Under the pieces are notes generated by a model, which saw only the letters and a list, made by a program, of their open reading frames with translations, was not told the DNA's origin and did no database searches. From Eunapius fragilis (Eukaryota > Porifera > Demospongiae > Spongillida > Spongillidae), in contig OY811988.1 in NCBI GenBank assembly GCA_963681505.1, forward strand, positions 2,622,306 to 2,686,305: a stretch of DNA of 64,000 bases. The letters are read 5' to 3'. The position numbers were made by a program, and so were the translations under genes. Shown one piece after another: positions 39,581 through 62,352 of this stretch (position 1 is its first letter; the number at the start of each line of letters is the position of its first letter).

Positions 39581-39582
39581 TA

Positions 39583-39742
39583 CACAGGGAAAAAAATCGT
39601 GTTCCGGACCTTGGGTTTTAACCTATCGACCATGGGATCTGTTCCATCAAACGTATCAAAGACTTTGAATACGTTTGATGGAACAGATCCCATGGTCGAT
39701 AGGTTAAAACCCAAGGTCCAGAACACGATTTTTTTCCTGTGA
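39583..39742. repeat. Foldback element: ~160 bp near-perfect palindrome
   Basis: The arm beginning CACAGGGAAAAAAATCGTG is mirrored with about two differences per 75 bases (one C/T substitution and one single-base indel), leaving almost no loop. It lies about 260 bp before the start of the Gypsy coding region. It could be a MITE collapsed to its inverted repeats or an inverted insertion at the retroelement boundary. Confidence 0.88.
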
Positions 39743-39769
39743 TATCCTGTGATAGGTCATCCGGTGGAG

Positions 39770-42400
39770 TCTGTGTGGGTTAGTAGGCCCCATTACTGGT
39801 TAAAATATATATATACATTGGGGTGATGGACAGCTAAACTACTTCCTAGTTTTACTCGATACTACAGTAGCCGTTTTTCTAGTGTGTACTTTGCGGAGCA
39901 CTGATATTGTAGCGGAAGGGATTTACGGCATACTGAGGGGCATTTTGTTGGTATCATTTGATCACTTTTTCGATTACAAAAACGTGCAGCTCGCTACAGT
40001 GGTGACCCTAAGCCTGAAGCATATTTCATGGCTGAAGAACGCGCAATTTTCCTCAAACTAACGACCTTCTGGATTTCCCTACCAGATGTTTGGTTTGTGC
40101 AAGCCGTGGCACAGTTCACCCTTTGTAAGATTACTTCTGACAAGACAATGTACTACTATGCGCTTGCAGCGCTCGACCAGGCAACGGCGGCGCGCTTTAT
40201 GGACCTAATCAGTCAGCCACTGACTACCGGCAAATACAAAGCACTGAAAACCCACCTTTTGGACACGTTTGGCCTCAGCACACAAGAGCGGGCATCCTGA
40301 CTTCTCCATTTTCACACGCTAGGCAATTCCAAACCCTCGGCTTTAATGGATGAAATGCTGGCTTTACTTGGAGACCGCCCTCCATGTTTCCTGTTTGAAC
40401 AACTTTTCCTTGAGCGCCTACCTGAGGACGTCCGAGTTCATTTGGCAGGTGCACAATTCACGGATTGCTGCCAGCTAGCCACAAAAGCCGACGTTTATTG
40501 GGTGAGCCGGGATACAAGGTTTAGTGCTAACGCCATTCATCAAAGAACATCTAGCTAGCGGACAGAAGTCTAAAGCGCAGCTTTGTCCCCCTCTCCCTGC
40601 CAAAGTGTGTTACTACCATCGCACCTATGGGGAGGCAGCTAGCAAATGTAGACCACCTTGTGACTGGTCGGGAAAAGGGCAGGCCGGTCGCCAATGATGG
40701 CCTCGGCGGCTGGCCAGAACAATAGCCTCCTTTTTCTACATGACACCATCTCTGGACGACAGTTTCTTGTTGGCACCGGAACTGAGGTCAGTGTTGTACC
40801 AGCCACTAGTTAGGACATGCGCACAGCACAACCAGGACCATCGCTATTGGCAGCCAATGGCAGCTCCATCAAAACTTATGGTTCACGCAGCCTTTCCCTT
40901 CATTTTGCCTCCAACAAGTACCAGTGGACTTTCACTATCGCTGATGTTTCTCGCCCTCTGTTGTGAGCAGATTTTCTCCGCTCAAACTCTCTCCTAGTTG
41001 ACCTCAAAGGTAAATCGTCTTGTGGATGCAGTGACTTTCCTTTCCATCCCATTGGGCACATCCAATGCCCAAGCACCTCATATCAGCGCCATCGCAAGCT
41101 CTACCGACCAATATGACATGTTGCTCTCCGTATTTCCAGACATCATGACATCATGACACCTAACTTTACTCGAGCACCAGTCAAACATGGCGTAGAACAT
41201 TTCATTGTCACTAAAGGACCGCCTGTCCATTCACATGCCCGCCGTCTACCTCCTGACAAATTGGCAGCAGCCAAAGTCAAGTTTGAGGACAGGAAGGCAT
41301 GGGCATCATTCAACGGTCATCCAGTCCATGGCATCTCCCCTACATATGTTACCGAAGGCAGCTGGAGGTTGGCATCCTTGTGGTGACTACAGGCGTCTTA
41401 ATGGCATCACAGTACCTGATCGGTACCCAGTGCCCCATATTCAGGACTTTTCAAACCACCTCGCTGGCAAAACCATCTTCTCCAAGATCGACCTGGTGCG
41501 CGGCTATCACCAGATTCCTGTTGCGGCTGAAGATATTCCAAGGACGGCCATTACAACACCCTTCGGGCTTTATGAGTTCCTGAGGATGCCTTTTGGCCTC
41601 AAGAATTCTGCCCAAGCTTTCCAGCGTCTTATGGATACAGTTTGCCAGGGTTTAGATTTCACCTTCGTTTATATCGATGATATCTTGGTGGCTATCAACA
41701 ACATTGAGACACACAAAGAACACCTCCGCCTGCTTTTTCAACGTTTACAAGATTTTGGCATGGTGATTAATGTCTCGAAATGTCAGTTTGGCCATGATTC
41801 CATCGATTTCTTGGGCCATCGCATCAATAGCACTGGATCTTTTCCATTACCTGACAAGGTACAGGCTATCTCAGAGTTCAATCAACCAGTGACCATAAAA
41901 GGGCTACAATGGGCATGGTAAAATTCTATCGTCGATTCACTCCAGCAGCTGCACAATTGATGTCTCCATTATTTGATGCTTTGGAAGGCAAGCCCAAAAC
42001 ACTGGTTTGGAATGATGCTATGGTGAAAGCTTTCCAAGACACTAAGAGACCGTTAGTTGAGGCCACTTTACTTACGCACCCCCGTCCTGATGCATCTATT
42101 TCACTCACAGTGGATGCCTCTGACCATGCAGTAGGTGCAGTCCTTCAACAGTTTATGAACGACACTTGGCATCCACTAGCATTCTTCAGCAAGAAATTGA
42201 GACCCCCTGAAAAAAAGTACAGTGCCTTTGATAGGGAATTACTCGCCTTATACCTAGGCATATGGCATTTCCGATATTTCCTAGAGGGCCGTTCATTTTT
42301 TGCCTATACCGACCACAAACCACTCACATTCTGTATGTCCAAAATGTCTGAACCATGGTCAAGTAGACAGCAACGTCACCTTTCTGAGCCAGTTGTGTGT
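39770..42400 (+). mobile_element. Ty3/Gypsy retrotransposon, truncated at the 3' side
   Basis: A primer-binding-type sequence (TGGTGACCC) at about 40001 follows GCTACAG, so the 5' LTR should end near 40000; its left end is not fixed. Gag begins at 40028 (KLTTFWISLPDVWFVQAVAQ) and meets a TGA at 40298. A second Gag piece contains MDEMLALLGDRPPCFLFEQL. A zinc-knuckle-like segment and protease (GRQFLVGTGTEVSVVPA) follow in broken frames. Reverse transcriptase is nearly complete at 41205-41921, with [11 protein letters not shown], the [14 protein letters not shown] block and the catalytic YIDDIL. RNase H follows (LTVDASDHAVGAVLQQF) to about 42400. No integrase or 3' LTR is seen. Several frameshifts make it inactive. 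Confidence 0.85.
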
Positions 42401-42920
42401 TGTAATTATCCGCAAACCTGTCAACAGAATAGGACCCATGCATTTTCCAAGTAACAGAATTATTGAGGGTTTACCTGCCAGTCATTGTAATCAACAATTG
42501 CGACTAATAAAATCAGCCATTTTCGCTATGAGGTACCCATTCAGGCTCCAGCCTGATGTGATAAGTGATGCAAGTTTTGAACACTTTCAAGGCCTGCTCT
42601 TGCAGAATAGGCTTCTTACTACCTACATGTACTTAAAGAATGTGTCCTACATTTTGATAATCCGAAAACCATCTAACGCGTATTGCACAACTTAACTGCC
42701 ATGGAATCAAGCTCTCTACTCACCACAACTAGTTCTCTGCATGTGGAGCTTTGCACAGCCTCTTCTGAGGATCTCATTCCTTGAGCTACATGTGTACCAT
42801 GCTCTACTATATACCCACCATAAACCCATATCACTCGCATCAGAATAAACTACTCTACAGCAGATGCGGTATGCCAAATACATGTAGGTAGTGCACATAA
42901 AAGACATACACAGCGTTAGG
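42400..42920. other. No feature seen
   Basis: Sequence between the truncated Gypsy element and the 5S-like segment. I recognise nothing in it. Confidence 0.4.
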
Positions 42921-42924
42921 TGAT

Positions 42925-42979
42925 GCCTACGACCATACCACGCTGAAAGCACCGGTTCCCGTCCGATCACCGAAGTTAA
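42925..42979 (+). pseudogene. Truncated 5S rRNA sequence (5' half)
   Basis: It begins GCCTACGACCATACCACGCT, with CACCGGTTCCCGTCCGATCA and CGAAGTTAA following. This is the conserved first ~55 nt of eukaryotic 5S rRNA, including the GCCUACGRCCAUACCAC start and GAUCACCGAAGUUAA. The remaining ~65 nt, with the internal-promoter C box and 3' pairing strand, are replaced by unrelated sequence. It is not a functional 5S gene. It could be the head of a 5S-derived SINE or a retroposed fragment. Confidence 0.85.
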
Positions 42980-43375
42980 CCCAATCGCCACCTAAACACA
43001 GTCCTAAGTATGCAATTATTAAAATAATTATTAATACATTAGTCACCGCATGTCTCGTGTTTGAACATTAGTAGCAGCGCTAAACAAAAAGTCGGTTAGA
43101 GTCGGCTAAGTCTAGCAATGTTTTTAAAGCGTTCCAGTCGTGTTACACCTTTATAGCACATCATATTGTAGGGGGAAAGCCCAGAAGATCCATATATAGC
43201 CCTCTTCTTCTCTGTGTATATGGTTTAACACAAAATTGGAGAGCTCTCAGAGACCACTATCAGGTAAATCCCAGTATGACGGTGCTTCTGCAACAGATAA
43301 ATCTCAACATGCTCCATTGCATAATTTAGTACTTAGTCATGTCACGTGGCCTGCTGAAGTTTCAAGCCACACAAA

Positions 43376-43442
43376 GTATCGTAATCCTTCATGAAATTAT
43401 TTCGGATGAACTGGATCGTAAGGGCACTCTTTCCCACACCTC
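43376..43442 (-). pseudogene. Orphan exon fragment of a Ras-family GTPase
   Basis: After a good acceptor (AAGCAG|GA) the minus strand reads GGVGKSALTIQFIRN and NFMKDYDT. This is the P-loop (GxxxxGKS, last part) and switch I approach of Ras/R-Ras/M-Ras proteins, which bind GTP and signal at membranes. The expected continuation (D-PTIEDSY) is absent. The frame runs on as unrelated residues to a TGA, and no clear donor follows. Neither the preceding exon nor the later G-box exons are seen nearby. I read it as a relocated or decaying exon. Confidence 0.65.
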
Positions 43443-43529
43443 CTGCTTGATATTGGACACACTGAGGAAGAAAGGGGGTTGTGGGGTTAATTAATAGGAA
43501 TTATACTTATGAAGATTACCATAGCTTCC

Positions 43530-43927
43530 CCAAAACTCCAACTTTATGCGCACCAGTGGGGATAACTCCAAGCTATCACACCATGCATACCGGGATTCAA
43601 TGCATATAAATTTCTGGTCATGAATCTTGCAACTGGGCCCAAGACTAAATCCATGGATAAAATTTTTCAAACAATGCTAGCAAGACGCTTAGCTTTTAGA
43701 CTGCAGAAGGTTAGAGCACCTTGTGATGTGGACTGTAAGGCTTGCATTTTTATAATAGGAACCGTTTCCTGACCCTTCTGCAAGTTTATCTCAAAACCCA
43801 ACCATGTTAGCGAGTGTGATGGTGTCCAAACAGATTTATCATCATTAAAAACAAAACCTGACTTCTGCAACGTGTCCCATACCCACCCACTGCCCCTCTT
43901 AGCCTCTTCCTCACCCCGCAAAGACAC
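43530..43927 (-). pseudogene. DIRS-type reverse transcriptase relic
   Basis: The minus strand reads LQKSGFVFNDDKSVWTPSHS, LTWLGFEINLQKGQ, VPIIKMQAL, then after a stop MDLVLGPVARFMTRNLYAL. This matches the connection between reverse transcriptase and RNase H in DIRS-like elements (GFVxNxxKS-W-P, W-LGF-I, LGPVxRxxTRxLY). The catalytic domain is not present. At least one in-frame stop. Confidence 0.65.
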
Positions 43928-44200
43928 ACCAATTACTTAATGGCCTTCAGGCCACTTGCCCGCCATAACCATAGGCGGCCCCAGCATTTTATGGAGGGGG
44001 CAAAGCATAGAAGGGTGCCAAAATGGGAGGGGCATTTACTATGTTATGGTAATAATGGATTTTGATTATTATTCATGTTGCTACACTTCATGCAAGTAAA
44101 AACTCGGTCACTGCTACTCTAAGATTAGAACTCGTTTTCCTTTTGCATACGTGGATGAGGGATTGCCTGGATGTCATAAATTCATATTCAATACATGTAC

Positions 44201-44900
44201 TCAAAAGTTAAGTTCTGTCTGTCCCCCATGTGGCAAGGTTCCACACCAGCCCACAGTTCCATTTGCTTGGTGAGGCTCTCCTTCATTTCTAACAGGATTT
44301 TCTTTATGGCACTGGGCCGTTGCAATATTAGCACAAAAGAGCTTTCCCTGTTTTTCATACCATGCCTCTGGACGTAAAGGGAAAGGAAGGCAAGAGATTA
44401 CATTCAATTATTACCTTGAATAGTATTTTCTTCATGGGAGGATACCTCATTGTCATTTTGTTCAGTTATATTGCTGGGACTAGATAAGTATCCAAACATG
44501 TCGATGTCTACCTCCATCCTTATGTTATCTTCATCTGACTCATCTATTTCCCCAGTTTGTTTGTCCATTGACAATTCATCATATCCCTCCAACTCCTTAT
44601 CATTAAAGTATAAGAGGTCAACATAAATGTCATTTTGCTCCAATTTGTTTGCACTTGCTCTGATATCTCTCATTAAATTACTGCTTATTTTTTTCCACGC
44701 TAGGAATAACAGTAGCTAGCTGTTGGATGTTAAGGAGTTTTAAAGTTTTGGGCTGCGAATTCACTGCTTCTGATATTAAGGCCATTGGATATATTGATGG
44801 GGGTGGTGGAAGTACACTCTTCATCTTCTGTTTATATTTAGCAGCCTCAAGGTAGCCACTCCAGCCAACAGTGTGCTGGAGGTTATGGTAGATGTAGCCA
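44201..44900 (-). CDS. Last two exons of a minus-strand gene (acidic C-terminal region), unknown function
   Basis: Exon a (44900-44415) follows a pyrimidine-rich acceptor (TTTCTGCCAG). It reads GYIYHNLQHTVGWSGYLEAA, then LPPPPSIYPMALISEA, and, after a one-base slip in a run of seven A near 44690, an acidic stretch (DESDEDNIRMEVDIDMFGYL). A 47 bp intron (donor CAAG|GTAATA, acceptor GTCCAG) joins in frame to exon b (44367-44201), which reads EAWYEKQGKLFCANIATAQC and ends with TGA. The tiny intron and matched phase support real coding sequence. It probably belongs to the same gene as 47585-48924, but the linking exon was not found. No family is recognised. Confidence 0.5.
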
Positions 44901-45132
44901 CTGGCAGAAAGAGTAGGAGGGGTGGGTTACAATTCTAACTAAATGGACCAGAAAATTGCAGTTGTCATGGCCACACTCCCACCATGCATGCTAGTCCATC
45001 CCAACACATGCCCAAAACTGTACCAAGTTACTTAGCATGTGAGCGTGAGCAAGGCCCTATTGCAATGACCACAACGCTTACCAATAGTGTGAGCATCTGC
45101 CACATGTCTCTGGGTATGTCACACACAAAAAT

Positions 45133-45391
45133 TATAAATTAAAAAAGACAGCACTCTACACTTGACACAAGCAAAGGGAAAGTGATGATTGCCTCAACTA
45201 ACTGTTTCTCTGAGGAGAATTTCTGTTGAGTGACACTACGAAGTCAACTGAAACCAGATACAAGTGGCGTCACCACCTTGAAGTAAGCTTCTTCCACTTC
45301 GGAAGTCGAAGACTAGAACCTGTGATATGCCGCCGCACAATCTGTAATAGTGGATATACGACAATGGAGAGGCAATCCGATGGACCCCGCC
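45133..45391. repeat. Dispersed ~256 bp repeat, copy 2 (SINE-like candidate)
   Basis: Direct copy of 32097-32353 with scattered substitutions and small indels, ending at the same GATGGACCCCG boundary. Confidence 0.75.
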
Positions 45392-45909
45392 CTAAGAAAA
45401 ATTTTGACATGTCATGCCATGACTTAGCATTACATGGTTTACAATGCCTTGCCATGACATGGCATTCAATTGAGACATCAATTGGCCTGATCAGGCCTGA
45501 AGTACCATGAAAGGTATCCATGAACTTGCATTACGTATCCAAGACACACCATGCTTATTATGATATGCAATACTTTAATACTTGTATTAACACAATTACA
45601 AGACATCAAACAACAATTACATAATTATTAGCAGCTCTACATTTTTGATTAGCCTTTTCTTGAAACTTCTTTGAATCAAACTTCTCATCAGGAAATCGTT
45701 GCTTCATCAACTCTGTATATTAAACTATATGTTATTCATGATATTTTTTATACAACCATTTACATGTACCTATAATGGTGCCAGCCTTCTCTTGGTCTAG
45801 CATAGGTTTCTTGCTTTTTTGTTGATGGAAAGATTAAACTCTGGGACAGTTCTTCTTTAGTGAAGTACAAGTCAAGGAGCACGAGCTCAAACAAGTATAT
45901 ATACTTGTA

Positions 45910-47100
45910 AGGATAAAGCACGAACTATCCACCTAGTTGGACACAACGTACGGAATCCAGGAGTTGAAGGAGCAAGTTCAGATTTAAGTCGATTAAAAAT
46001 AGCTTCCCGTTTCGGTGAAAACTTCACCAGCTTGGAAATCTCAAATACTGTGTCAAGAGTGTCCTCGAAGTATTTTGTTCTTTTTCACCATGTCTGAGGC
46101 TGCAAGGTTTAATGCATGTCCATAGCAGTGTGTGTATGTCTCATGGGATTCCTCTGCCAATATCTGAGCTGCAACTCCATTTCTATGCCCTGCCATGTTT
46201 GCTGCTTCGTCGTAGCATTGACCCCTGCAGTTGGTAATAGGTAAGTTCATCCGTATCATGGTGTCCTTCAGGATGTGCACTATTGTGTCACTCTTGGTTG
46301 ATTCCACAACATACACTTCAACGAAATCACACAAGTTCCTCATCAACTGTACGGAAACATACCACCACCTGCTCTTTGTTTGAAGCATCAGTAACTTCAT
46401 CAGCCATGATACAGAAATGCTTTGCATTTTGGATTTTTGCAGCAATGTCCCTTACAACACTGGAGCCCATAATAGACAGCAGTTCATTTTGGATATGAGC
46501 ACTAGTGTACTTGCTAGTCTTTTGCTGCATCCAGTTAACCAATTCCGGCTTTTTAATGGCAAGGAGATGGAGAAGTTGGATAAAGTTGCTATCCTTCTCA
46601 TCTTTATCACCTTGTCTGGCTAAAAATCTTATATTTTCAGCAATAGTTACAAGGCATTGTCCACTAATCTCCTTTCCTTCAGCATGAGCAGTTGAAAGCA
46701 TCTCTCCGATGTCCCTTGTTGTTTCAGGAATCGTAACAAGGACTTCAACGGCTTTCTTGTGTGTGGTAGTTTGCTCATGGCGTGCAAAGGCAACAGTAGC
46801 ATCCTTCCAGTTGGAAAACCCACCACAGACAAAGGGTGAATCCTTTATGTTGCCAGAGGCCAGGCTCAACTTTCCTTCATTGACGGCTTTAACGCAAGTG
46901 TGGCAAAACGAGAGGTCTTGAGAGCTATCGTAGTTTAGCCAGTGCCAGTTGGAAAACCAGTTACGATTAAAAGAACGCTTTACCATTTTTTTCTGGCCAA
47001 ACGTGCATCGGAAATACACATTTCAACGGCTGATTAGGAGCAACATCCATGTTTGGTGGTTTAAGCTCGGGAACACTTACAGTATTCATACCCGCCATCT
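45910..47100 (-). pseudogene. hAT-superfamily (DUF4371/ZMYM1-like) transposase relic
   Basis: The minus-strand product begins with MAGMNTVSVPELKPPNMD. After a frameshift it shows a TTF-type zinc-finger-like segment (WLNYDSSQDLSFCHTCVKAV, then an HEQTTTHKKAVE block), the DUF4371 core (FCIMADEVTDASNKEQVV, GQCYDEAANMAGHRNGVAAQ, THCYGHALNLAASDMV) and the RTLCPTRWIVRA block. Frameshifts fall near 46985, 46330 and 46055. The C-terminal dimerisation segment is not seen. It lies between two exon groups of the RAG1-N-like gene and on the same strand, so it looks like an intronic insertion. It cannot encode an active transposase as it stands. Confidence 0.8.
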
Positions 47101-47584
47101 ACACATGCTCCAGCCGCAACTATGATCACGATGAATATTTAAAATCGATATAACTTTAGTTAATAACTTATAATTAGGCCAAAAACCTGTACGGCTTTGG
47201 CCGTACAGGCCGTAGTGGTTGCTACGGCCCTGTTGAACTGTGTCATCTTGCAAAAAAAGTATCTGGGGTACAATAGCATTCCTGTGGGCTCAAGACGACT
47301 CATGCTCTAAAACTGCACTATATTACTTCTTCCAGTTACAAAATCCTTTAGTTGTGAATGCATTCCCCTGATTGGCTCTCCAATGTTCGCCTCTCAAAGT
47401 GGCATCACTAAATAAGAGACAGGGTAGGCACTACAAAGCATCTTTACTGACAGAGTATGAGCGCCACTGTCTGCCACCCTCATTTACTTGCCACACATGG
47501 CATAACTTGCACTACATTCAGATGAATTGAGCTGCAAAATTAAAGAACATTTCAAGAGTTTAGAATTCCCCATTTGTCATTTAC

Positions 47585-48924
47585 ATCATTATCATCTGAT
47601 AGCTTATCACAATCCTTATTTTTCTGCTTCCTTTTTGGCTGCTTTGATGATACATCTTAACCAAATTGAGAGATTTTTAAATACATTTCATATTTTATGG
47701 TAACTACATGTACCATCAAATGCTATATATTGGACAGGGTACGCCTTTCCATGAATGTTGCATAAAAGCACAGAACCTTTACAGAAGTCAGAATTTGAGA
47801 GTGGCTGCATGTCCTCTCTGGAAAGGTCTCTGATTTTAGCTGTAAAGACCTTTCCTTCCTGACTGCACTTTAGCTTGACTTTCTCTATATTGCATGATTA
47901 ATCTTGTTTATGAGTGCTTTGTTCCCTCCTTAATTCTTCCATGAGGACTTTATACCTGTTAATGTAGCACATATAAATCCCAAAGTGGGACTTAAAGGGT
48001 GGCTGGGCAATGGTGGTGGAATAGTGCCATTTGCTCTGATAGCAGAACTAGAAGTAGAAGTAGAAACAGCAACCACAGAAGTTGTCGCTGCACTGATGCT
48101 TGATGTACATATGGCTGCTGAGCTGGTTCTTGCGTGGGTAGCAGCAGATGAATATGGATGAAACCTTATCGGCAACATGTTTGCAATAATGTAGAACGTG
48201 ACACATTTTGTGAAAGATGACGATGCATAAGTATGTGCATATGTGATCTGTCTTGAACTGTGTATATGATACTACTACTAACAGCACTTGTGTTAAATGA
48301 GTTGAAATTCTGCTCACAGCAGACTTTTGTTGTGAGCCTTGTGCTGAAATCTTTCCGTTTAAAAGTCTATACACGCGAACATTTCAAGTTATCCTACACT
48401 GAAATAGGTTGAACTGCTGCAAGTGGTATCCCTTTAATCATATTCTTCTTGTTTGGTGCAAGACGTATGTGTTTTAGGAGCAGGTGTACTAAGGGCGTTT
48501 TTGCCTTGTGTGGTCTTCCACCATCATGTTGAGCTATAAAATGGTCACAAACCTATGATTTGAATGTAAATTATGTAGGTTAACGTTACTACTACGTTGC
48601 TCCTCATCTTGCACCCACCATCTGATGCATGAGCTTCCCACTTGTACAGCTCCATGCGGTTGTTGAAATGGCGATGTTGACTCGCTGCCTTTAGCTTGCG
48701 CTGCATCGCATCGTAGCAACGCTTGCAGAAAGAAAGTGGGTGAATCTGCGCTTCATCGTTTGCAGCATCCAGTCCAAAGCATAAGTACGGCTCCGACGCA
48801 AACGTTCAGAACATAAGTAAACCCTTGGGTGACTGGCCTTCAACTGTTTCCTTCCTTTCTTGTGGACCAACAAGGATCCACACAAGCGACAATGCAATTT
48901 GAGCTGGCATAAGTGGAAGTTCAT
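47585..48924 (-). CDS. Gene with RAG1 N-terminal-like zinc module, first four exons
   Basis: Exon 1 (48924-48590) starts at MNFHLCQLKLHCRLCG. After a frame slip near 48780 it reads AANDEAQIHPLSFCKRCYDA, then MELYKWEAHASDGGC. The pattern CRxCG ... IHPxxFCxxCxxxMxRK ... W-x-HxxxxxC is that of the conserved N-terminal region of vertebrate RAG1 and of RAG1-N-like proteins of invertebrates. Exon 2 (to 47956) is Ser/Thr-rich (SSAAICTSSISAATTSVVAV) and Pro-rich; its 5' edge is uncertain. Exon 3 (47884-47714) reads KLKCSQEGKVFTAKIRDLSR and CNIHGKAYPVQYIAF. Exon 4 (47655-47585) carries a basic stretch (SSKQPKRKQKNKD, likely nuclear localisation). Exons 2-4 join in matching phases (1, 1, then 0). Function is unknown; a nuclear DNA- or protein-binding role is inference. 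Confidence 0.55.
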
Positions 48925-49576
48925 TGTAGTCTCACTTTAGGGATCAATATAAAAATGTATAGATTATTCATACTTTTTGCGATCGCTAAACTACCAAGAG
49001 GACTCGAGAGCCACTCTGTGATCTACCTTTTTACACAGAACGACGCCCCTAATCAAGGTCCAAGTGTTTAGAAACTTAAGAAAACGTTCACAAAGCCCAC
49101 GGCCTAAACGAGGTTACCCGTACGTGCGCACGTGACCCTAATAGATAGGTGCAGAAAGGATCTGTGTATATGTTTACGCACTGCATACACCTCGTAGAGG
49201 CTCCTGTTCTGCAGAAAATGGTACAATACTGAACGGTTGGATAATGAGTTCAATGATGCCACATTACGGTACATTTTAATGGCTGTTCTAATTATACCAT
49301 TTTTGTCCAGGTTCAAAACATTAGTAGCATTTTGAAGAAAACAACTTCGCTAGCCAAAAGTGGTGAACAAAACTGCTCAAATGAAATCATACCGCTGCTA
49401 GAATTCTAAATAAACGAGAATGTGGCCATGTGAACGGTTATAGCACCCATATTACATCATGATTACGTATATCAGCTTTATGCTTATTCATGTATCTGAT
49501 ATCTGAAGATGTCCTTCCAGGAGAGTCTAAAGCGATTGGTATAATTTGCGCTCTTTAAAATCATTCCTATACCGAG

Positions 49577-49765
49577 TTGTACTCGGGCGAGAAGACGACG
49601 ACAGAGAAGAATTGGCCTAGGAATGAGGAAAAACACGAGTTTTTCTTAAAGCAAGCAGTTATAACACTGGAACAAAACATTAAAACGACCGTCTTTGCCT
49701 TCTGGTTTGATAGCAACGAAGAGCTACACTATCCGTTTCTTGGTACGCGAGTTATATGTGGGTAG
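49577..49765 (+). other. Short open frame, possible exon
   Basis: A 62-codon plus-strand frame reads EKHEFFLKQAVITLEQNIKT, FAFWFDSNEELHYPFLG and contains a possible donor (CTTG|GTACGC). No homology is recognised and no neighbouring exon found. It starts from a non-ATG codon, so a real exon would have to be internal. Confidence 0.2.
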
Positions 49766-49995
49766 CGTTTTTAATGATTTCACGACCTGGGTCAATTCCT
49801 ATGTAGGAACTACTACCGTAGTTCCTGATAGGGATGGTGCAAGTAAAGAGTGTGGCTAGTCAGGCGGGCCCTACCACCGCGTTTGGTCGGGTGATAGCAG
49901 AGGCGGATACAGGAAAATTTAGCGGGTGGGGGTATAATTTGAATTAATGCATGGGTTCACAAAACATCACAGACTGACATGTAGTAAAAGTACAG

Positions 49996-52443
49996 TTAAT
50001 TGTTATATAAAGCTTTGAAGAGTCTTCTGGGGTTCTTTTTGATATAACGGTCCACAATTTCGTCCGGATTGATCGCCAGATTTGCATTGGTATTCATTAG
50101 TGTTAATGAAGCAAGGCGATCTTCTTTCATGCTATTCCGTAGATGGGTTTTAATCCTTCTCAGCACTGAAAAGGATCGTTCCACCTCTGCTTACCGGAAA
50201 AATGCAACCTATTTCAATAAGAACTCGTATGTTATTAAATATATCAGTATCCGCATGAGGAAGACTACTTATCAAGTTTTCAGGAAGTGGTATGCCATTT
50301 GATTCCCTACTTTTCCAGACAAAGCACCAATGTTCCACTTCAGACATTAAGGAGGGAAATGACGGGAGATCATTTTTGTAGAAGGATAAATTATCAATGC
50401 TTGGCTGCTTTACTACAGCTGTCTTGGGGATAAGGAAAAAGATGCCAATTACTGGACCACGGTTCTGTTCTGAAAAACGAGTTGCCATTTCCGACACCAA
50501 AAAATCCAGGAAAGGAATTGTAATGCTTCTCTTAAAATACTCTTCTGTGCTTTCTGCTGGGACATTTGCTCTATGTTGCTGGCTCCGCACTGTTCTTGGT
50601 CTTTCTTCTACTGAACTTATTTCTTCTGCTACTAGTTTAACTTCCGCATAACAGCGTGAATGGAATTCATCTACATTTGTCCTGTAGCTTTGCAGACAAG
50701 AAATGGTTTCATCAACTCTCTGATAAGCTTCATAAATATTTAGATCTCTCTTTTGAAGTTTAGCTGCAATTCCTTTTAAAGGATGCAAGCTATTTTTCTG
50801 AACAACAAATGACACTATGTTTTCAAACCGTCTAGCACTTGATGCCAATCCATTTGCCTTTTCTTTTGTATCTTTATCCCATGACCAGTCTTCAAAGGAT
50901 AGAGTTTCGTAGAGATGGGGATGAGCTATTACACATCAGCGGTCATGACAGCTGCAGGAATCAGTGCCATAAAATTTTCATAAGCTTCATGACACTCCAC
51001 CCACCTTGTACGGCAGAGTCCTTTACTTGCGTAGCGTCAGGAAAGCATTTTTCAGTCTCGAAGAAAGCTTGTCGTTTGGGTGAATTATGAAAAAAAACAA
51101 GAACCATTCGTTGATCATGTCGATAACATGTCGGATAGGTGGCAGTTTACAACTTGAACTGATGCAAAGATTTAAAATGTGGGCATTGCATGGCAAATAA
51201 ATGGCTTTGCTGTAAATGCTTTTAAATCTTCCATGCACACCATTAACTGCTGATGACAGAACTTGTGGTATCATAGGTCTGTCCTTCACCTTTTTTAAAT
51301 CAATACCTTGTGATGTATAACACTCCACTAATTTCCTACATACTGTTTCAGAGTTCGTAGGGTCTAGCTGCACAAAGTCAAAAAATACTTCATTTATTTA
51401 AGGATGGACTGAATCAGAAATATCTGTGAGAGACTCCTAGGACGCTATGGTTGTTTGAACTATCAGTAACCTCGTCGGCAATTACGGAAAAAAATTCATT
51501 GTTCATCACCGGTGCGCTTGTGCATTCCCGTATATATTGTCCACAGAGGTCTATCAAATCGTTCTGAACTGTTTTTGAAGTATAAGTACTGTTTTTTGGA
51601 GCACTTTCTATAAACCCTCTTAATACATCATCACTCTGTGCTCTAAACCTTAGCAGAGAAATAAAATTACCGCGATTCGTTGGGTCACTAGCGGTAGCAT
51701 CATCCCAGTGCCCTCTAAAGGATATACTTGTTTTCCGCAGAATATTACGCACTCCACTATCGATCTTAACGCTAGCTTATTAAATGACGCAGATTCTTGC
51801 AATTTTTTATCAATAATTCCGTCAGTCCTCCTATCTGGATCATCATTTTGCAATACAAATTCCTTTCCGTGCAGAACAGTGTCTTTGTGAAACTGATAAT
51901 TCGCATGAGTCTCCAAAATGCCATCTTTCCCTTTGGCCTTCTTAAAATTTTGAAATGGCATTGTTACAAGTTTGCCGAGAAACCCTCCACCATGAGACTT
52001 CCCTTTTGGTAATCTTGCAAACAATGCACAATACTTACAGTACGCTCCTTGTCTGGAAGGCAACCATATCAACCAAGGGTAGTCTTCCAACCATTTGTGT
52101 TTAAAGTAAGCGTGCAATGTTTTGCCATTTTTAACATATACCTGTATACAGGTTCTGGCTTGTCGGATGGCAAAGGTGGAGATTGCTTTAAGAGGCGCAC
52201 AATAGTATCGTCCAGGATGACTGCTCCTGACGCAACAAGGCCAATATCGTCATTCGGCAGATCTGATGTAACACCATCAGTGGTCAGATTTACTGTGGCA
52301 CTGTTATCAGGAACAAACACAGAATGAGAACAGCGAGGTTCGTCATTAAACTCTGCACCATCAGTAAGCCCGTCTGAACTGAAAGGTACTGGTTGTTCAT
52401 GCTCCTCCAATACTGCATTATATCTACTTGTTGATTTTTGTTG
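49996..52443 (-). pseudogene. hAT/ZMYM1-like transposase-derived coding block fed by upstream micro-exons
   Basis: A strong acceptor (TTTTACAG, AG at 52445-52444) opens a frame reading QQKSTSRYNAVLEEHEQPVP and an acidic linker. Next come the TTF-type finger (FKHKWLEDYPWLIWL, GAYCKYCALFARLP), RGHWDDATASDPTNRGNF, the DUF4371 core (FFSVIADEVTDSSNN, IYLPCNAHILNLCISSSCKL, IDMINEWFLFF), and a hAT C-terminal dimerisation region (RSFSVLRRIKTHLRNSMKED, RLASLTLMNTN). The whole domain order is present, longer than in most relics. Single-base frame breaks lie near 52110 (an A run), 51735, 51415 and 50195, so it is either a decaying gene or several sequence errors. The upstream phase-0 exons at 52691-58616 would splice onto its first codon. 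Confidence 0.75.
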
Positions 52444-52690
52444 CTGTAAAATTTACTGAGTCTGTGTATATTCATTTGCACGTGAAATTGCCTGAAGCAA
52501 AGGAAGCACATTGTTAATGCCATATTAAAATTAGAGTGCCCATATTTCCTCACATAAGTTAAAAACCTGGGTGATAAACCCGGCCATAGGCAGGCATGTA
52601 TGACTATTCAGTCCATTCAATGTCATGTTCACATGTTGGCTAAGAGAGATGTATTATAGTCACAACGACAAAATGTGTTATTATGCATAC

Positions 52691-52738
52691 TGCTTTCTTT
52701 CGTCGAAGTATTTCAACACCCTCTGGTAACTCTGCTTG
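52691..52738 (-). CDS. 16-codon exon directly upstream of the hAT-like block
   Basis: Acceptor AAGTCAG and donor GCA|GTATGC bound 48 nt that read QAELPEGVEILRRKKA, phase 0 at both ends. It would place a basic nuclear-localisation-like RRKK before the acidic linker of the 49996-52443 block. Single exon prediction without homology. Confidence 0.45.
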
Positions 52739-53210
52739 CTGACTTATACACATTATTCCAGGCTACAGGGATAAACAATGGCATAGGTGCAAAATAAATG
52801 TGTTGTTCTCTACCACATTTGACATTTGGGTTGTGATGGCTTGTGTAGAGAGTGCCAATGTCGACTCCTAAAGTCAGATAGAATATATTGCATTGAAAGT
52901 ATATGTAAAATACTCATCCTACCTTATAAGGTGTACATTCAAAGTACTTTGGATGTGTAAGCATCCACACATTATCATGTTGTATATAGCCCTATTTGAA
53001 ACAAACCACAATTATGATATTAGGTCTTGAAGTACATTTATTTATAGACGCATGATACGTTAATTATTACTTAAGCTTAAAACTATGTTGAGATTCAAAG
53101 GCGTTCGATTTCTTTTCAATCTACAATTTTTTAATTGCTTTTTAATACAATTCATATTTGCAATATAATTTATGTTAGCATATTTAGATATATTAAATCC
53201 TTACACACAC

Positions 53211-56200
53211 CTCATCATTTGCACTTTCCTCTGAACCTGAGTGTTAGGTATGCAATGATTCTGATATAGGAAAATATTGGTTAATTTTGTGTAGGTATTT
53301 AAATGCATTTAGTGGTTAAGTACATGTGCGTGCATATTGCTTCATTAATAGTTATTAGTATTCATTAGTATTCGCGCACCTAAATTCATACTCTTACGTA
53401 ATGTACCTACATATGATGCATGCCACTGGGTACAAGTACATGTATCAATCAATGTGTACAAACCTCATTGGTGCCAATGTTACCAGAAAATGCATTTATA
53501 TGGATTACAATCATCCTGTATACAGAGCATCATTTATAACAACTGAGGATTTGGGGGGTAATTCAGCAGCTCTTGATGCACAACTCTGCTCTACTCTAGA
53601 AGCAAGTGTAACTACTTTTGCTGTTACTGATATTGAGCAATGGTCCTACATGTGAGGCTTTGGGATAAGAATCTCTAACTATTGTAGTAGACTCCTTTGG
53701 CACCTAGGAAGACAAAGCATCCAAATCGACTTTTAGATTGGCTTCTAGGATGGTTGCACAAACCAAATTGTACAAGGCCACATTTTTATCCAAGCTGTAC
53801 CTGTTCGCACCAATGCCAGAGCCTTTCAAGCATGATCCAGGCCTGTTGTCAGCACGTACAATATTAGCTATCGAGTTGTTTATAGTACTATATTCATCGA
53901 CTGCATTATTAGATATCCTTAATAATATTTTGAAAAATATAAAAACAAAAAACTTCATTTTACTTCAAAATCCCATACAATGTATTACATCATAACTGTA
54001 ATTATATTCACCACTTACACAAATAATACACTTAGAACTGTAATGCACTTAGAAACAACATTACATTGAACACAAACCTAACCATAAACTTCAATTCCAT
54101 CAAAGTTACATTTATCATCATTCTGTGTTGTGAGTACTGAAATGATCCAAAATACATCTGCTCACCTCATCTGACTGGATGGTTGTTGCTAAAGTGAGCT
54201 GTATAGGAAATGCACATGACATGACAATGTGTTTTTAGTAACATGATTGGACCTAAGAATCGATCTCAAATTTGTACACATTGTCAACTAATTAATACAA
54301 CAAAATAAAATTTGCACATCTACGTGTAAAAGGTACCTTTAAGTTCATACACATACAGTACCTCATCATTTGCACTTTCCTCTGCGCTTGAAGCTGTGTC
54401 AGTAGGTATGCGATGATTCTGATATAGGAAATATGGGTTTTATTTACTACGAGAGTACAAGCATTTGATTATGTGCATGCACTGCTAGGGATAATTTACA
54501 AACCTCATTGCCACTGTCCTCAGCTGAATCAGTGGAAGCAACTAATGAATGCATATTAAAGATCTAATGACACTTCTTTCTTATAATGTGTAGATTAAAA
54601 ACAACTACATGTAAATTAAATAAAATAATTTGCATAGTATGTAAATTATATAGATTTATTTATGTTTACAGTTACAATACATAATGAATCTAAATATGAT
54701 GCACATCTCTCTATCTCAATGAATGTGCACAAACCTCATCAGTGCCACGATGCATTAGGGCATATAAATGTATTACAAGAATCCTACGTAGACCTGTAGC
54801 TTAAAATTAATGTTCAACTACATGAATCAATTTTATCATTGAAACACCCCAGTATTTAGTTTCAAAACTCATACAAATAATATATCTCCATTCACCAAAA
54901 AATGTATTAGTTTCATTTTCTTCTGCACAGCTCAGTATACAAGTGTAATTAATCAACTCTTAATTTCACATCATATTTACTCAATGATGTGTAATCTACT
55001 AATTTCATCACATGTGGTATCTACGTTCATCACAAATCATATTTGTTTCATGATGTCCTTCAGTAGCTACATTGATGATAAATATTCTAACAGATACACA
55101 AATTCTTACACAATGGAAATCAGTCTGTCCATTGTGGAGCTACAGTGGCTTTTAATTACGCGTACATTTTAATTTGATGCTTTATCCTGGAATGCGCAAC
55201 ACTTAGGTCCCTTTTTGGTACCTCAACCCCGTATATATGTTCACCACTAATGAAAATAATGGACTTAAGTACTATACTACAGACCTCATCTGAGCACTGT
55301 AGTGTGCATTATGTAGTTACTCCATAATGCAGCAAATATTTCTTCTCTGCTTGTAACATCTAAAATGCATAGATATCAGTTCTTACACATACCCCATCAA
55401 TTGCACTTTCTTCTGAGCCCATAGCTGTGTCAGCGTTGGGTATGCAATTATTCTGATATTGATAAATATGGGCCTGTTATAATATACGAGTACAGACATT
55501 CAACTACATATACAAATGTACATTCACTTATAGGGACAAAGAAAATAAATAAACTTTATTTGTACTGTTCTCATGAGTTGTTTCTAACAAAAGATCATAT
55601 ATACATCTAATTACACATTGACCTTATCACCAGCATAGCACATGATAATCTGAACAGAGTGTCTGTAAGATGTTCATTTTAAGTTTTGATGTTTTCTGGA
55701 AGTCTGCAATGTTTTTTTCTTATCCTATTCACACTGAAAATCATATGAGACTCTAAATTATATTTTAATTTAACCTGCATGTACATTTATGTCCTTAAAA
55801 GTTTGGTTCCTTTTTGCACACACTGTCCCATCATGCCTGAATATGTGTGAACTACATATATCACACTGAGTAGTTTTCCTGAGAGTAAGACCAACTTCAC
55901 ATAATACATGTACATAGAATGTTCTAATTTTTTTTAAAGAATTGGTGTTTTTATATAACAATGCATGCATGAGTCAATGATTGTGCACAAACCTCATTAA
56001 TGCCACTGATGCATACAGGTATCAGATGCAATAGTGCATTTTACTATCTATCTATATTTTTATACTATGCATAAACCCAATCATCATTAAAGGTAGTTAG
56101 CATTTCACTGCTACAATGCATATTTTTAAACCACTTAAATAAATGTAACACTTAGAGATGACATTACGCTATACACAAACCTCATCTCTGTCACTTCTGC

Positions 56201-58616
56201 CATCCACAATTGCATCAAAGTTGCAATTTTCATCATTCTGGTTAGAGAGTACTGAAGTGATTAAATCTATATCTATAAATGTACTTGCCTCAAGTGGTTG
56301 GATGGTCACTGCTGGAGGTAGCTGTATGGTACATGGCAGTGTGGAACGGATATTAAAACATATCATAATATGATTCTGTAGTATAAACCACTTAGACTTA
56401 ATCAATGTCCAATTCCTTTTCCTTTTAATATTATTATTATACAACACTTTCAAAGATATTACTATTCTGCTTGGCTACAGAATCATTTCATCCTCTAACA
56501 AAAAATCCAGTAAACAAGCATACAAAACCATACAAAACTGTCATTGACATCCAAATGCTTTTTTTCTAAGGAATGTATAATGTACACACATATTTATATT
56601 GCATATAATATTTAGTATTTGAGTAGAATGATAATGATCAATGCCTGCTTACCTCATCTGGTTGGACAGTCACTGCTGAATTGAGCTGTATAGTACATGA
56701 CCCTGAAACATAAAAATAATCAGAAGATATCAGAAGATAAATTTACAAAACAAAATCTTTTGTAAACAAGCATAAATAAAGCATTCACATATGGGCATAC
56801 TTTCACATTAGTACTATATAACATTGTTTACAAACCTCATCTGTGCCACTTCTGTTGTCTAGTTCAACAAAGTTGTATTTCTCGTCATTCTGGTTAACGA
56901 GTAAAGAGATGATCCTAAAGACAAGTACAAATGTCAACTTACCTCATCTGGTTGGATGGTCACTGGTGCAGTGAGCTGAATAGTAAACATGAAAATTGAT
57001 GGTATGATATATATTTGTTAATCATTGGTTATAATACTAGTTCCTGATCATAATACAAAAATATATACAGAATTCCCCAATTGCACATCTAGAATGCATA
57101 GATGTATTAAGCACTTACACATACCGCATCACTTGCACTTTTTCTGAGCCAGTGTTAATTATGCAATTATTCTGATATAGGAGATATGGGTGTGTTAAGC
57201 ACAGACATTCGACTATATGTACAAATGTATATTTGTTTCTAGGATAAAGGAAATTGGCTAACCTCATTGCCACTGTCCTCACGTGAATCAGTGGGTCCTT
57301 GTAATTAATTAACACATATGCATCTAAACTTCTAATGACACTTGTACCTTATTAAATTAACAGCATAAATATGTAATAATCTGAACAGATACAAAAACTA
57401 TGTTTTGTTATAGGATTTGATATTATTTTCTGGAAGTCTGCAATGTCCTTTGATCCTATATGCACTGGTAATGATATGAGGCTCTGAACTTTTTAAACTA
57501 ACAGTGTATGTCCCTAAAAGTATTTTGGTTCCTTTTCACACCTGTAAATATCTATAATGCACTGAGCTGCTTTCCTAAGAAAAGACCAACTTCACACAAT
57601 ACACAGAATGTTCTAATATCACCATCAAAGGAATTGGGTGTCTTGATTTTAAAAATATTGTATGAACAATGTACTTCTTTCGCTACAATAAGAAGCTAGT
57701 TTGTCAAATGGCCCTCAGTTTTCTCGACACCACTATCAATACAACCAAATCATAATTTGATGGGAAGCCCTATTAATAAAATACATGTACATTGATCAAA
57801 ATGAAAGTCATAAATACTACTTACTCAAAATATCCTGAAAATGATTGATAGTAGACATTACCCCGTAAACACCTCCCCAATTGCATAATATGTTGCACTG
57901 GGACTTAGAATCATAGAAAATGTTTACAAGTTAAGGAAATAACAACTAATTATTAAAGCTATTACAACCGCAGAAGGATGCACTTTGGTACCATGCTGAT
58001 GGAGCACTGGCTGGTGATGAATGCTCATTATGTAAAACCTTACATGCCTGTTTGTGGACCTACCTACATGTGATACCATTGATAAGTATGTGGTGTTATA
58101 TGCACAACTTACTACACGACACAGACTCGCCCTCTCAGGTGCCATTTTGGTCCCCAAGCTTGCAACTGAGTGATTTGTGTTTAGATATATTTAAGTCGAA
58201 ATTTATTCATAAGTAAAGATTACATAATGCACCTATCTATGATGCATGCATGGTATTTATGAATGTGCACAAACCTCATTAATGCCACTGTTATCAGAAG
58301 ATGAATTAGTGTATTTTGATAAATGTATTTAAAACTTCCTATATAAGTGTAAAAATGAAGTTTAATTTTCAGTACAAATAAATAAACTCAATAATGATAC
58401 TAGCATTTCATTTTACTACTAAATTCATATTATCATATTTCTAATAAATATTTTCATTTTCACCACTTGCAAACAAACCTCATCTGTGACACTTCTGCCA
58501 TCAATTGCATCACAGTTGCATTTATGATCATTCTGGTTAGGGAGTACTGAAATGATCCAAAATACATGTACAAATGTACTTGCCTCAGGTGGTTGGACGG
58601 TCACTGCTGGCGTGAG
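53211..58616 (-). repeat. Array of duplicated micro-exons (types A, B, D, E/C), minus strand
   Basis: Four exon types recur in order A-D-E/C-B about three times, each bounded by AG and GT (or GC) and in phase 0. Type A, 33 nt, five of five open: 58616-58584 (LTPAVTVQPPE), 56975-56943 (LTAPVTIQPDE), 56685-56653 (LNSAVTVQPDE), 56321-56289 (LPPAVTIQPLE), 54198-54166 (LTLATTIQSDE). Type D, 54-57 nt: 58532-58479 (NDHKCNCDAIDGRSVTDE), 56889-56836 (NDEKYNFVELDNRSGTDE), 56237-56181 (NDENCNFDAIVDGRSDRDE), plus a decayed copy near 54.1 kb. Type B, 57-60 nt: 55452-55393 (NNCIPNADTAMGSEESAIDG) and 54418-54362 (NHRIPTDTASSAEESANDE), with decayed copies at 57171-57125 and 53260-53211. Type E/C: 54563-54504 (IFNMHSLVASTDSAEDSGNE), with decayed copies ending at 58275, 57263, 55993, 54735 and 53464. 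A-to-D introns are 51-53 bp. The peptides are acidic and mostly end in DE or NE. Expression is unproven. Confidence 0.6.
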
Positions 58617-59180
58617 CTGTATAGTACATGACAATGACAAGATATAACCAGAGGGCACAATTAACACTATGTTTGAATCCTATTGTAAAATTTGACACTC
58701 ACTATACATGAAATTTAAAAATATGCACACATGTGCACAATGTTATACAATGTGATAACCACAAGCAACGCACAGAATTAGATTGTTTATCACATTCTTC
58801 TGTCGCTCTGTCAGTACATCCTTCATTCTGACATGAGAGAATAGTAATGGACCAATGTGGGAGTGAGCCATAATCATATCCAAACAATAATGTGTACAAA
58901 ATAAACATCATTACAGTATTTCTTAGATTGCTGTAATGACATCCTGCATACACATACCATTACAAATAATGCTACATAAATTTTAAGCCTTATTATTGCC
59001 TAGCATTGTATCAATGTTGCAAGTTGGATTTTTTTGATTGCTGAATTAATTCAAGGTCACAACATGCAATTAATTTTATGAATTGAATTGCAATAGCATT
59101 TGTTTCACCTCAATTATGACAAATAAATATGCACATAGTAACTTGCTTTGTGTTCCTCGAACACCATCTCTTCCCTTGCA
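58617..59180. other. No firm feature
   Basis: AT-rich sequence upstream of the last recognised micro-exon. No further copy of types A, B, D or E is seen. Confidence 0.4.
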
Positions 59181-59351
59181 CACCTAAGAATGACATAAGC
59201 ATGCATACAGATAAATATATCCAAAGGTGTAAACTGCATACTGTACCTTTTGCAGGTGTCACCTCTCAGGCAGCTGATAATATAACAATGGCAATTAGTG
59301 CATCTGCCCATTTTTTTTTCTTTCTCTTCGGGTGTGTCTATTGTAGAAAAG
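59181..59351. repeat. Direct repeat, copy 1 (~170 bp)
   Basis: It shares CACCTAAGAATGACATAAGC, GGTGTAAACTGCATACTGTA, TTTTGCAGGTGTCACCTCT and a final pyrimidine tract with 62189-62352, in the same orientation 3 kb apart. Relative to copy 2 it has lost the open frame. Confidence 0.85.
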
Positions 59352-59735: not shown

Positions 59736-59879
59736 GCCATAGTAATTAAGCTCTATAAATTATTTGCTCATTGGTTTATGACAACGTTTGACATAGTTGC
59801 GACAAGTATTCATCTTGTATATTCTTGTATACTCACAGGTATTATAAACGGCCATTCTTTAATTGCACTTCAAGAATCA

Positions 59880-60860
59880 ATGTAAGTGCACATTTTCATG
59901 TTACATGTACCTTCAAATTTGTTCACTCCTTGATCCTTGCTAACGCCTTCGCAGCACTCAAAAGATGGGCCCAAAAGATTCAACACCCAAAAAACCAAAC
60001 AACTGTGGAGACGCTAACTAGTGCGTCAACATGGAAATGAACGCTGACGCTTCAAGTCAGTTGGATGAGCAGGCTAAGTCAACTGGTTGTTTAACGTTTA
60101 ATGTGTGGAATGGCCATACGTATGTATCAACTTGCAGATAAGTTCGAACCGGGAAGTCATTTTTTTAAAATCAATTACAGCCCGTCACAAGTCCAATTAG
60201 CGTAATTCCAGCTTGCTTAAGTTTGAAATTTGCATGAATGTGTAACAGTACTAAAACCAGTAGTTTCGCCTCGTTTATAAATGCGCATGCGCAAGTAGTA
60301 ACATGTACGAAAAATGAAATGATAATTTGGTGCAAAAAATGAAATGATAATTTCAAGGGGCAGTGAACAAAGATTAACGTAACCGCTAAACGAAAGTATG
60401 GGCTTCGTCCCAGACCCGTATACTAGTTACCAAAGCGTGAAATTTCCCCTTTCTTTGCCCCCTTTCGCAAAAAAAATTGTGGATATCCACCCCTGTCATT
60501 GTTGTACTCCCTACGCAAACGGTTATTCATTGCGTTGCTTCGCTAAATATTTACGCTGATGATACGTCGTGAGGCTAGCTGCCAATAAGAGTAGCATCGA
60601 TGGTTATATAAGAGTACCAAAAAAGAAATAAACCCAATGCTTATGGCGGCCGATTATAAAAGTTCATAATTATGCTATTGGGAGTCTGTGGGGTGGGGGT
60701 GCAGGGGGCTATAGCCCCTCCAGTTTTTTCCGTGATCATGATTATGACATTACAGATGCTTCACTTTTTTATGAAGTCTTAGAATATGCATTGTACTTTC
60801 AAGGTCAAAGAGCAGATCTTGTTGGACAGCACCTTCTGATAGATATGGATGTCAACATCT
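59880..60860. other. No feature seen
   Basis: No coding block, repeat boundary or RNA gene recognised. A GGTTCGAAC word on the minus strand near 60145 lacks a surrounding tRNA. Confidence 0.4.
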
Positions 60861-61290: not shown

Positions 61291-62188
61291 ATGTTGAATT
61301 AATGATTCAAGTTATTACTACTCAATTAGTCATACAATGAAGGATGGATAATGGATCCAGGCTACTGAAACACCATACCTCGGCTGTGATTGCTGCCAAG
61401 GAATTAATCTTTTAAGCCATGACAAATTTCTTACAACCAAGACCAAGGTCACAGGAAAAGCTATTTATAGCTACTGCAATCAACAATTGGTATGAATTTT
61501 ATTATTATTCTCTATTTCACTATCAATGATCAATTACATGTCCTGATTGAGTTGGAATTACCCAAGCCAATGTAAGGGACAGCATGATGATATCATTCCA
61601 ATTGCAGTGCTGAATGACGTTGCGAGTATAATAAGTCATTTATTTCATGCAATAAATCCAGATGTGCATATTTCTTAATTAAGTGTCAATACTCTGAACA
61701 GGAATAATGCGCACTGGACCGTATATATGTACAAAGGTATCTTCTCAAAAGAGACAATTACTGGTAAATAATGGCCTGTTTTAAATACAAGGGAAACACA
61801 CTTGATTTTCACAAGAAATCATGCCTATTCATCAAGTACGATGATGATTGCTATTAGTTGCGATGCTATCTCCTGCACAGATCTCAAATACAAGAAACAT
61901 TCCTCAACAGCTACATGTATACTGGTGTCATCCTCCTCTTCCCATGGACTAGCACACATTATAGGTTAAACATTGTACGTTAGTGGCGATTACATAAAAA
62001 GCATAAGTGCCCAATGGCACGTTGTTGAATATTGAAATATAATGTGGTAGTGGTTATAAAGGCCCAATAACTGCTACTATTTTCCCGCATACAAATCAGA
62101 GGACTATTTATTAGTTGCAAGATGTCTTCAACTGCATGATAAATTATATTGTATACCTCATATTCCATCTCTTGACTGTGATATTCTA

Positions 62189-62352
62189 CACCTAAGGATG
62201 ACATAAGCATACAGATAAATATCCAAAGGTGTAAACTGCATACTGTACCTTTTGCAGGTGTCACCTCTGAAGCAGGTGACAATTGTAGTATCTGCAATTG
62301 CTGCATCTGCCCATTTTTTCTTTCTTTCTAGGTGTGGTCTATAGTAGAGAAG
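62189..62352. repeat. Direct repeat, copy 2, with a possible exon on the minus strand
   Basis: Copy of 59181-59351. On the minus strand an acceptor (CACACCTAG) at 62329-62328 opens 79 nt (62327-62249) reading KERKNGQMQQLQILQLSP and ASEVTPAK before a weak donor (AAAG|GTACAG). It might be a 5' exon of the micro-exon gene, but its end phase (1) does not match the phase-0 array. Confidence 0.5.

Follow-up and report, generated by a model that had tools for sequence, protein, structure and literature searches.

The micro-exon genes (MEGs) of schistosomes carry most of their coding region in very small symmetric exons, from which alternative splicing could give a pool of similar proteins (PMC4350168). 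The bicycle genes of aphids also have many small internal exons of one phase, almost all of them phase 2, together with fast protein change, and many of their products have N-terminal signal sequences; genes with many one-phase exons of similar size are called rare in most genomes (PMC9168663). Here we describe a locus in the sponge Eunapius fragilis whose gene form resembles both. It lies in a window of 64 000 nucleotides, the whole stretch of DNA that was analyzed (C18:2622306-2686305, from a genome of 218.9 Mb in 24 contigs), and holds an array of repeated small exons next to a transposase. Judging from the sequence, we consider it likely that the array is the middle of a real protein-coding gene that has been duplicated in tandem, with the window copy decaying and the transposase being separate from it.

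Coordinates follow the window numbering and run on beyond 64000 into the adjoining sequence (continued coordinates). The window copy, W, occupies 60256-52414 on the minus strand (C18:2674719-2682561), and an upstream copy, U, lies outside the window at continued coordinates 77028-70835 (C18:2693140-2699333), collinear with W; the two probably represent one protein-coding gene duplicated in tandem. Both have two Cys-rich start exons (N1 and N2), the array and the 3′ exons F, G, H, I and J, with unequal exon numbers. The initial annotation of the window had noticed neither U nor the Cys-rich first coding exons (59311-59147), nor exons F, G, I and J. N1 of both copies encodes MGRCTNCHCYIISCLRGDTCK, in which inspection found no long hydrophobic stretch and no evident signal peptide, and N2 ends in phase 0. 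Also common to both copies are the acceptor of exon H at 52763 and a remnant (W 54816-54673, U 72385-72257) that in U falls below the threshold of the exon-model scan described below. Used as a DNA query, 851 bases of the array matched at seven places, all on C18 (the query itself, a second one inside the window and five past its end, at 71.7-75.0 kb), although the absence of matches elsewhere in such a search is no proof of rarity.

The minus strand carries four types of array exon in a recurring order. Type A has 33 nt, type B 48 nt in the intact copy, type D 45-57 nt and type E, when intact, 57-60 nt. Type A encodes LTPAVTIQPDE and variants of it, and the A-D introns in the window measure 51, 53, 51 and 43 nt. 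The initial annotation reported that type A keeps its length and frame, and this holds: all five copies in the window are open and 33 nt long, as are all 12 when the seven of U are included. U has 15 curated array exons in the order A D A A B E A D A A D E A D E, every one of them open, a multiple of three in length, in phase 0, and flanked by AG on the acceptor side and GT on the donor side (in one case GC). Together they amount to 666 nt (median exon 45 nt), or 60% of the 371-codon model, and encode 222 residues of which 52 are D/E and 10 are K/R (pI 4.05), while the C-terminal part of the model has 115 residues and a pI of 9.5. Because each curated U exon is open, codon-bounded and a multiple of three, any subset of them could be joined without breaking the frame.

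So as not to count intact-looking exons only, we gave each exon type a model of its own and searched W, U and two stretches serving as controls. At E ≤ 0.01 the scan returned 15 sites in U, all curated and all intact, versus 19 sites in W with 10 intact (Fisher p = 0.0019). The nine non-intact sites of W comprise four broken curated exons and five that by eye look broken or reduced to remnants, and neither control stretch gave an array-exon site below E 0.28. The earlier description of a micro-exon array thus stands for the repeated small exons, their four types and their recurring order, but not for an array open as a whole in the window; the micro-exon reading itself is supported because U keeps 15 of 15 curated exons open and a protein of a second species shares both ends (see below). 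The doubt raised at the time about decay fits W, which is probably losing its function, since its array is partly broken and its conserved C-terminus is cut by two in-frame stops in exon I (TAG, TAA) that remove the best-conserved end of the protein. The features of W, all on the minus strand, are as follows.

59842-60156, minus: duplicated block before both copies, 75.5% identical to continued 76891-76585
59247-59311, minus: N1, first coding exon, MGRCTNCHCYIISCLRGDTCK(R), 65 nt, the same sequence in W and U; the genome has similar exons at other places
59147-59183, minus: N2, (R)CAREEMVFEEHK, phase 0 end at a GC donor
58584-58616, minus: A1, LTPAVTVQPPE, 33 nt, intact, GC donor
58479-58532, minus: D1, 54 nt, intact
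58269-58311, minus: B-type remnant, no acceptor seen (exon-model scan E 0.00018)
57258-57312, minus: B-type exon, broken by eye (scan E 2e-12)
57125-57171, minus: E1, 47 nt, frameshifted
56943-56975, minus: A2, 33 nt, intact
56836-56889, minus: D2, 54 nt, intact
56653-56685, minus: A3, 33 nt, intact
56289-56321, minus: A4, 33 nt, intact, GC donor
56181-56237, minus: D4, 57 nt, intact
55986-56012, minus: exon remnant, donor side only (scan E 0.0029)
55393-55452, minus: E2, 60 nt, intact
54728-54748, minus: exon remnant, donor side only (scan E 0.00022)
54504-54541, minus: B2, 38 nt (48 nt in U), frameshifted
54362-54418, minus: E3, 57 nt, intact
54166-54198, minus: A5, 33 nt, intact
54078-54122, minus: D5, D-type, 45 nt, TAG at its end
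53458-53529, minus: decayed D/B-like exon (scan E 3.1e-05)
53211-53260, minus: E4, 50 nt, frameshifted
52923-52991, minus: exon F, 69 nt, GYIQHDNVWMLTHPKYFECTPYK
52814-52867, minus: exon G, 54 nt, ESTLALSTQAITTQMSNV; Ephydatia counterpart present in P0001 and missing from P0002 and P0003 (see below)
52691-52762, minus: exon H, 72 nt, PGIMCISQQAELPEGVEILRRKKA; contains the 48-nt RRKK exon of the initial annotation
52554-52639, minus: exon I, two in-frame stops (TAG, TAA) in W
52444-52491, minus: start of exon J, (M)QFHVQMNIHRLSKFYS; contains the acceptor claimed earlier at 52445-52444; FH..R..KFYS recurs in P0001

The first of these, the duplicated block, is a probable 5′ untranslated exon with promoter region.

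Noncoding alignments of W and U have 17.2% divergence over 1108 sites and contain 21 indels, of which 19 are not multiples of three. When the U exons were simulated neutrally at this measured rate, 8.5 of the 15 were broken on average and not one of 20 000 runs left them all intact; at half the rate, all remained intact in 0.19% of runs. In the constant exons outside the array, nonsynonymous change is lower than synonymous change. Between W and U, exons N1, N2, F, G and H (exons I and J being left out of the comparison) have a pN of 0.050 and a pS of 0.181, with Fisher p between 0.0008 and 0.0035 depending on how half counts are rounded, and for exons F, G and H alone p is 0.009-0.023, by the same rounding.

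A second species provides a protein with the same ends. The U model, used as a query without exon J against 5.8 billion proteins, had one match, EMCRGX_G028858 of Ephydatia muelleri (P0001; E 1.6e-6). A profile built from the host model and P0001, with 8000 candidates scored, added Em0013g1002a and Em0013g1019a (P0002 and P0003), and the last 99 residues of P0001 as a query returned the same three proteins. From their names and their 97-98% identity, P0002 and P0003 are apparently also from E. muelleri; the Em-named models presumably belong to the gene set of the E. muelleri genome paper, for which models were predicted with AUGUSTUS (PMC7385117). P0001 starts with MGRCTRCRRFLLCTCIQGNMCRSC, has a repetitive middle and ends in ITTQVSN...LPEGVEL...AYNRVYHPGFKLMAFHHLITMKRMAKFYSHI, to which ITTQLSN...LPEGVEI...AYGRVYHPGFKLM corresponds in the host. 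Past FKLM the host has a 62-nt GTGAGG...CAG intron and then QFHVQMNIHRLSKFYSKQN and a stop (exon J), fitting the Ephydatia end. The alignment with Ephydatia led us to exon J in place of an earlier reading of the last exon, which ended in ...AIPRANEYTQTQ and a stop. The C-terminus AYxRVYHPGFKLM.FH..R..KFYS occurs in all three Ephydatia models, and the MGRC Cys start occurs in P0001, with P0002 and P0003 lacking the first 29 residues. P0001 counts as a homologue, having the same N-terminal Cys motif, the same C-terminal motif and repeats between them, and when searched back in the host genome its sole match was exon I of U (E 0.022). The gene probably belongs to the sponge lineage.

Pfam gave no family for the host model, and Ephydatia hits below the curated cut-offs were judged to be chance (YABBY, E 0.04-0.06; DUF7177, E 0.0019; DUF5571, E 0.0027). 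A PDB search returned nothing below E 0.19, and the AlphaFold predictions of the three Ephydatia proteins are uninformative (mean pLDDT 28.8). The three Ephydatia gene names were not found in the open-licence literature of PubMed Central, nor were sponge micro-exon genes, judging by titles and listings among the matches listed; a search there for micro-exon and Porifera brought up only a placozoan mitochondrial exon paper.

Several results weigh against a coding array, and some of them favor a non-coding segmental duplication, in which duplicated intronic or intergenic DNA would contain open frames by chance. The array exons show no purifying selection on their amino acids: over 24 exons (four broken curated exons, type B and end codons left out) the pooled pN/pS is 0.99 (0.64-1.47), with 1.37 for type A, 0.73 for D and 0.60 for E. 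This was the comparison of synonymous and nonsynonymous change that the initial annotation had suggested. In two of the three aligned W/U blocks, exons are no more alike than noncoding sequence (0.903 versus 0.924 for the rest in the 3′ block, with exon J counted in the rest, and 0.770 versus 0.832 in the A1-D1 region), the N1-N2 block being the only one with exons ahead (0.971 versus 0.881); furthermore, the N1-N2 intron is identical at 59 of 59 aligned sites and the G-H intron at 51 of 51. Relaxing the limit of the scan to E ≤ 0.05 adds three sites in U (E 0.015, 0.042 and 0.049), none of them an intact exon, and the intact counts become 15 of 18 in U and 10 of 19 in W (p = 0.08). For three broken exons among 18 the probability would be 0.0006 at the full neutral rate and 0.085 at half of it, and the simulation starts from recognizable exons, which biases it towards a gene. 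The ...DE ending common to the array exons is partly forced by the AG|GT donor. Between the two species the repeats differ and the array units mostly do not align; when 15 host exons were compared with the Ephydatia units for homology, E1 alone scored above most shuffles (its score was reached in 5 of 300), which is not significant over 15 tests.

A pN/pS near 1 in the array and the nine broken sites among 19 in W are what a non-coding duplication would produce. It does not account for the 15 intact curated exons of U, when 8.5 would be expected to be broken, nor for pN being below pS in five constant exons or for a protein of another species that shares both ends, and we regard it as improbable. 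With a protein-coding gene as the preferred interpretation, the array pN/pS near 1 combined with intact exons suggests that the peptide drifts while the frame and the splice signals seem to be kept.

The initial annotation had read the array differently: splicing would join it to a hAT/ZMYM1-like transposase, either domesticated or in recent decay, to which it would supply a variable acidic tail at the N-terminus. A transposase block does lie directly downstream of the array on the same strand:

49898-52413, minus: decayed transposase block, a neighbor outside the gene; DUF4371 in one piece (the hAT/ZMYM1 label is that of the initial annotation)

However, the gene has its own last exons before this block, and the array, rather than being an N-terminal tail, has a Cys-rich N-terminus before it and a conserved C-terminus after it. 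The AG of the supposedly perfect acceptor at 52445-52444 lies inside the coding sequence of exon J (...LSKFYS), in a peptide that recurs in Ephydatia, and two in-frame stops in exon I of W precede it. The 48-nt RRKK exon proposed to lead into that acceptor belongs to exon H (72 nt, 52762-52691) as its 3′ part, and the acceptor of exon H is a different one, richer in pyrimidines. The block is itself split into five open reading frames (ORFs) of at least 120 aa, one of which matches DUF4371 (PF14291; E 3.5e-12). A transposase was looked for in the 6.8 kb behind U without success, and between window 38000-52500 and continued 64000-71000 the sole similarity is the gene end, which stops at 52414. 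As a DNA query the block had 12 non-self matches, three of which were compared over window 53600-49000, a range that covers exons E4 to J and not the whole array: C13 (51247-49898, 92-93%), C11 (50390-50083, 92%) and C21 (52127-50592, 66%). In all three the similarity stops at 52127 or later, short of the gene. Splicing of the array into the transposase is accordingly very improbable, and the block behind W appears to be a separate decayed element not joined to the gene. We also rejected the array as part of a transposon, given that the 851 bases of array DNA match only on C18 and that the three examined relatives, compared over exons E4 to J, stop before the gene. The array had been joined to the transposase because the true last exons are short, which calls for caution in annotating similar loci. 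A second DUF4371 transposase fragment lies at window 46327-47022 on the minus strand (E 2.8e-08); it also has a hit to a C17orf113-like zinc finger that falls short of the curated cut-off.

If the gene is real, it would be transcribed and translated, and its array exons could be included in every transcript or chosen among. Under the second possibility, the cell would join different sets of skippable phase-0 exons, and exon choice would vary the length and sequence of an acidic linker between the Cys module and the basic tail. The three Ephydatia models, 97-99% identical where aligned, differ by internal blocks of 21, 12, 18, 25, 30, 17, 9, 8, 7 and 5 residues, one of which, QTTLTIAQVITTQVSNT, is the counterpart of host exon G; this is a pattern that cassette exons would give. 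The same differences may come from gene prediction or from separate loci, and the two gene names Em0013g1002a and Em0013g1019a suggest two loci. We give exon skipping in the array about an even chance. A fixed repetitive spacer, with all array exons always included and changing only by evolutionary exon birth and loss, agrees with the different exon numbers of W and U and with the different repeats of the two species. It fits less well with Ephydatia models that differ by whole blocks, the exon G counterpart among them, if these are neither different loci nor prediction differences; we consider it plausible, with a somewhat less than even prospect.

The Cys-rich start belongs to a wider set of exons. 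A genome search placed the MGRC exon at nine sites, four on C17, one on C10, two on C18 and two on C11 (the last at E 0.47), and one more on C17 was read by eye. Inspection shows an intron interrupting the motif at one and the same codon on C17, C10 and C18, and the C10 gene (L045 9192-8210, minus strand) continues with four phase-0 exons of 57, 45, 60 and 57 nt. The C-terminal exons were found in the C18 pair only, the best match elsewhere having E 0.13. An additional N1 copy lies within the window:

62188-62336, minus: degenerate extra copy of N1 and the start of N2, upstream of W, 86.8% identical to continued 75695-75547

At C17:5850774-5859950 there is a tandem gene cluster with the same MGRC Cys exon followed by large exons with repeats of the form WGFTxEQxLEYxR, and one gene of this cluster holds a long repeat, DGNTAMRDTA. 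In the C18 pair, long stretches of the N2-A1 intron (window 59146-58800; continued 75513-75120) are nearly identical between W and U. This intron also contains an open AATGAAGGATGTACTGACAGAGCGACAGAA piece after an acceptor-like AG, without a clear donor. Just upstream of U, a gene-like stretch with large open exons was seen by eye (L009 ~7640-4410, minus strand). Elsewhere in the window, inspected translations indicate retroelement-like protease and reverse transcriptase frames at 9809-10402 and 41196-42454 (plus strand), and a clathrin heavy chain linker exon (PF09268, PF13838) lies at 30527-30940 (plus strand). Rfam had no matches within the window.

Compared with MEGs, U has the same architecture, with 60% of its model in 15 small phase-0 exons. 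MEG exons measure 6-36 nt, whereas the array exons here measure 33-60 nt and only seven of the 15 in U fall within the MEG range. No sequence relation was found, three protein searches (one with 8000 candidates scored) having returned Ephydatia proteins only, and the sponge product starts with a Cys-rich MGRC module. With bicycle genes the locus shares many small internal exons of one phase, but all 15 U array exons are in phase 0 and not phase 2, and no sequence match was found. The resemblance to both is thus one of gene form, without homology to MEGs and without the bicycle phase. The likeness to DUF4371 transposases is limited to one ORF of the downstream block, a decayed neighbor unjoined to the gene. 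Closest are the uncharacterized Ephydatia proteins EMCRGX_G028858, Em0013g1002a and Em0013g1019a, which share the C-terminus, the repetitive middle and, in P0001, the MGRC start; they differ in array units that mostly do not align with the host types, and Ephydatia is represented here by proteins alone. A broader joint reading, which we put forward tentatively and consider doubtful, is that sponges have their own independently evolved micro-exon system of tandem genes with more than 12 skippable phase-0 exons and combinatorial acidic linkers joining a conserved Cys module to a conserved basic tail, in which the linker amino acids turn over fast (pN/pS near 1) and constraint acts mainly on the frame and the splice signals. 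The locus is a natural experiment, its tandem copies lying next to each other, one looking intact and the other decaying. The compared examples, MEGs and bicycle genes, are effector-type genes of parasites and insects; if the reading is true in sponges, for a gene with no match to either and no evident signal peptide, it suggests that this architecture arises independently.

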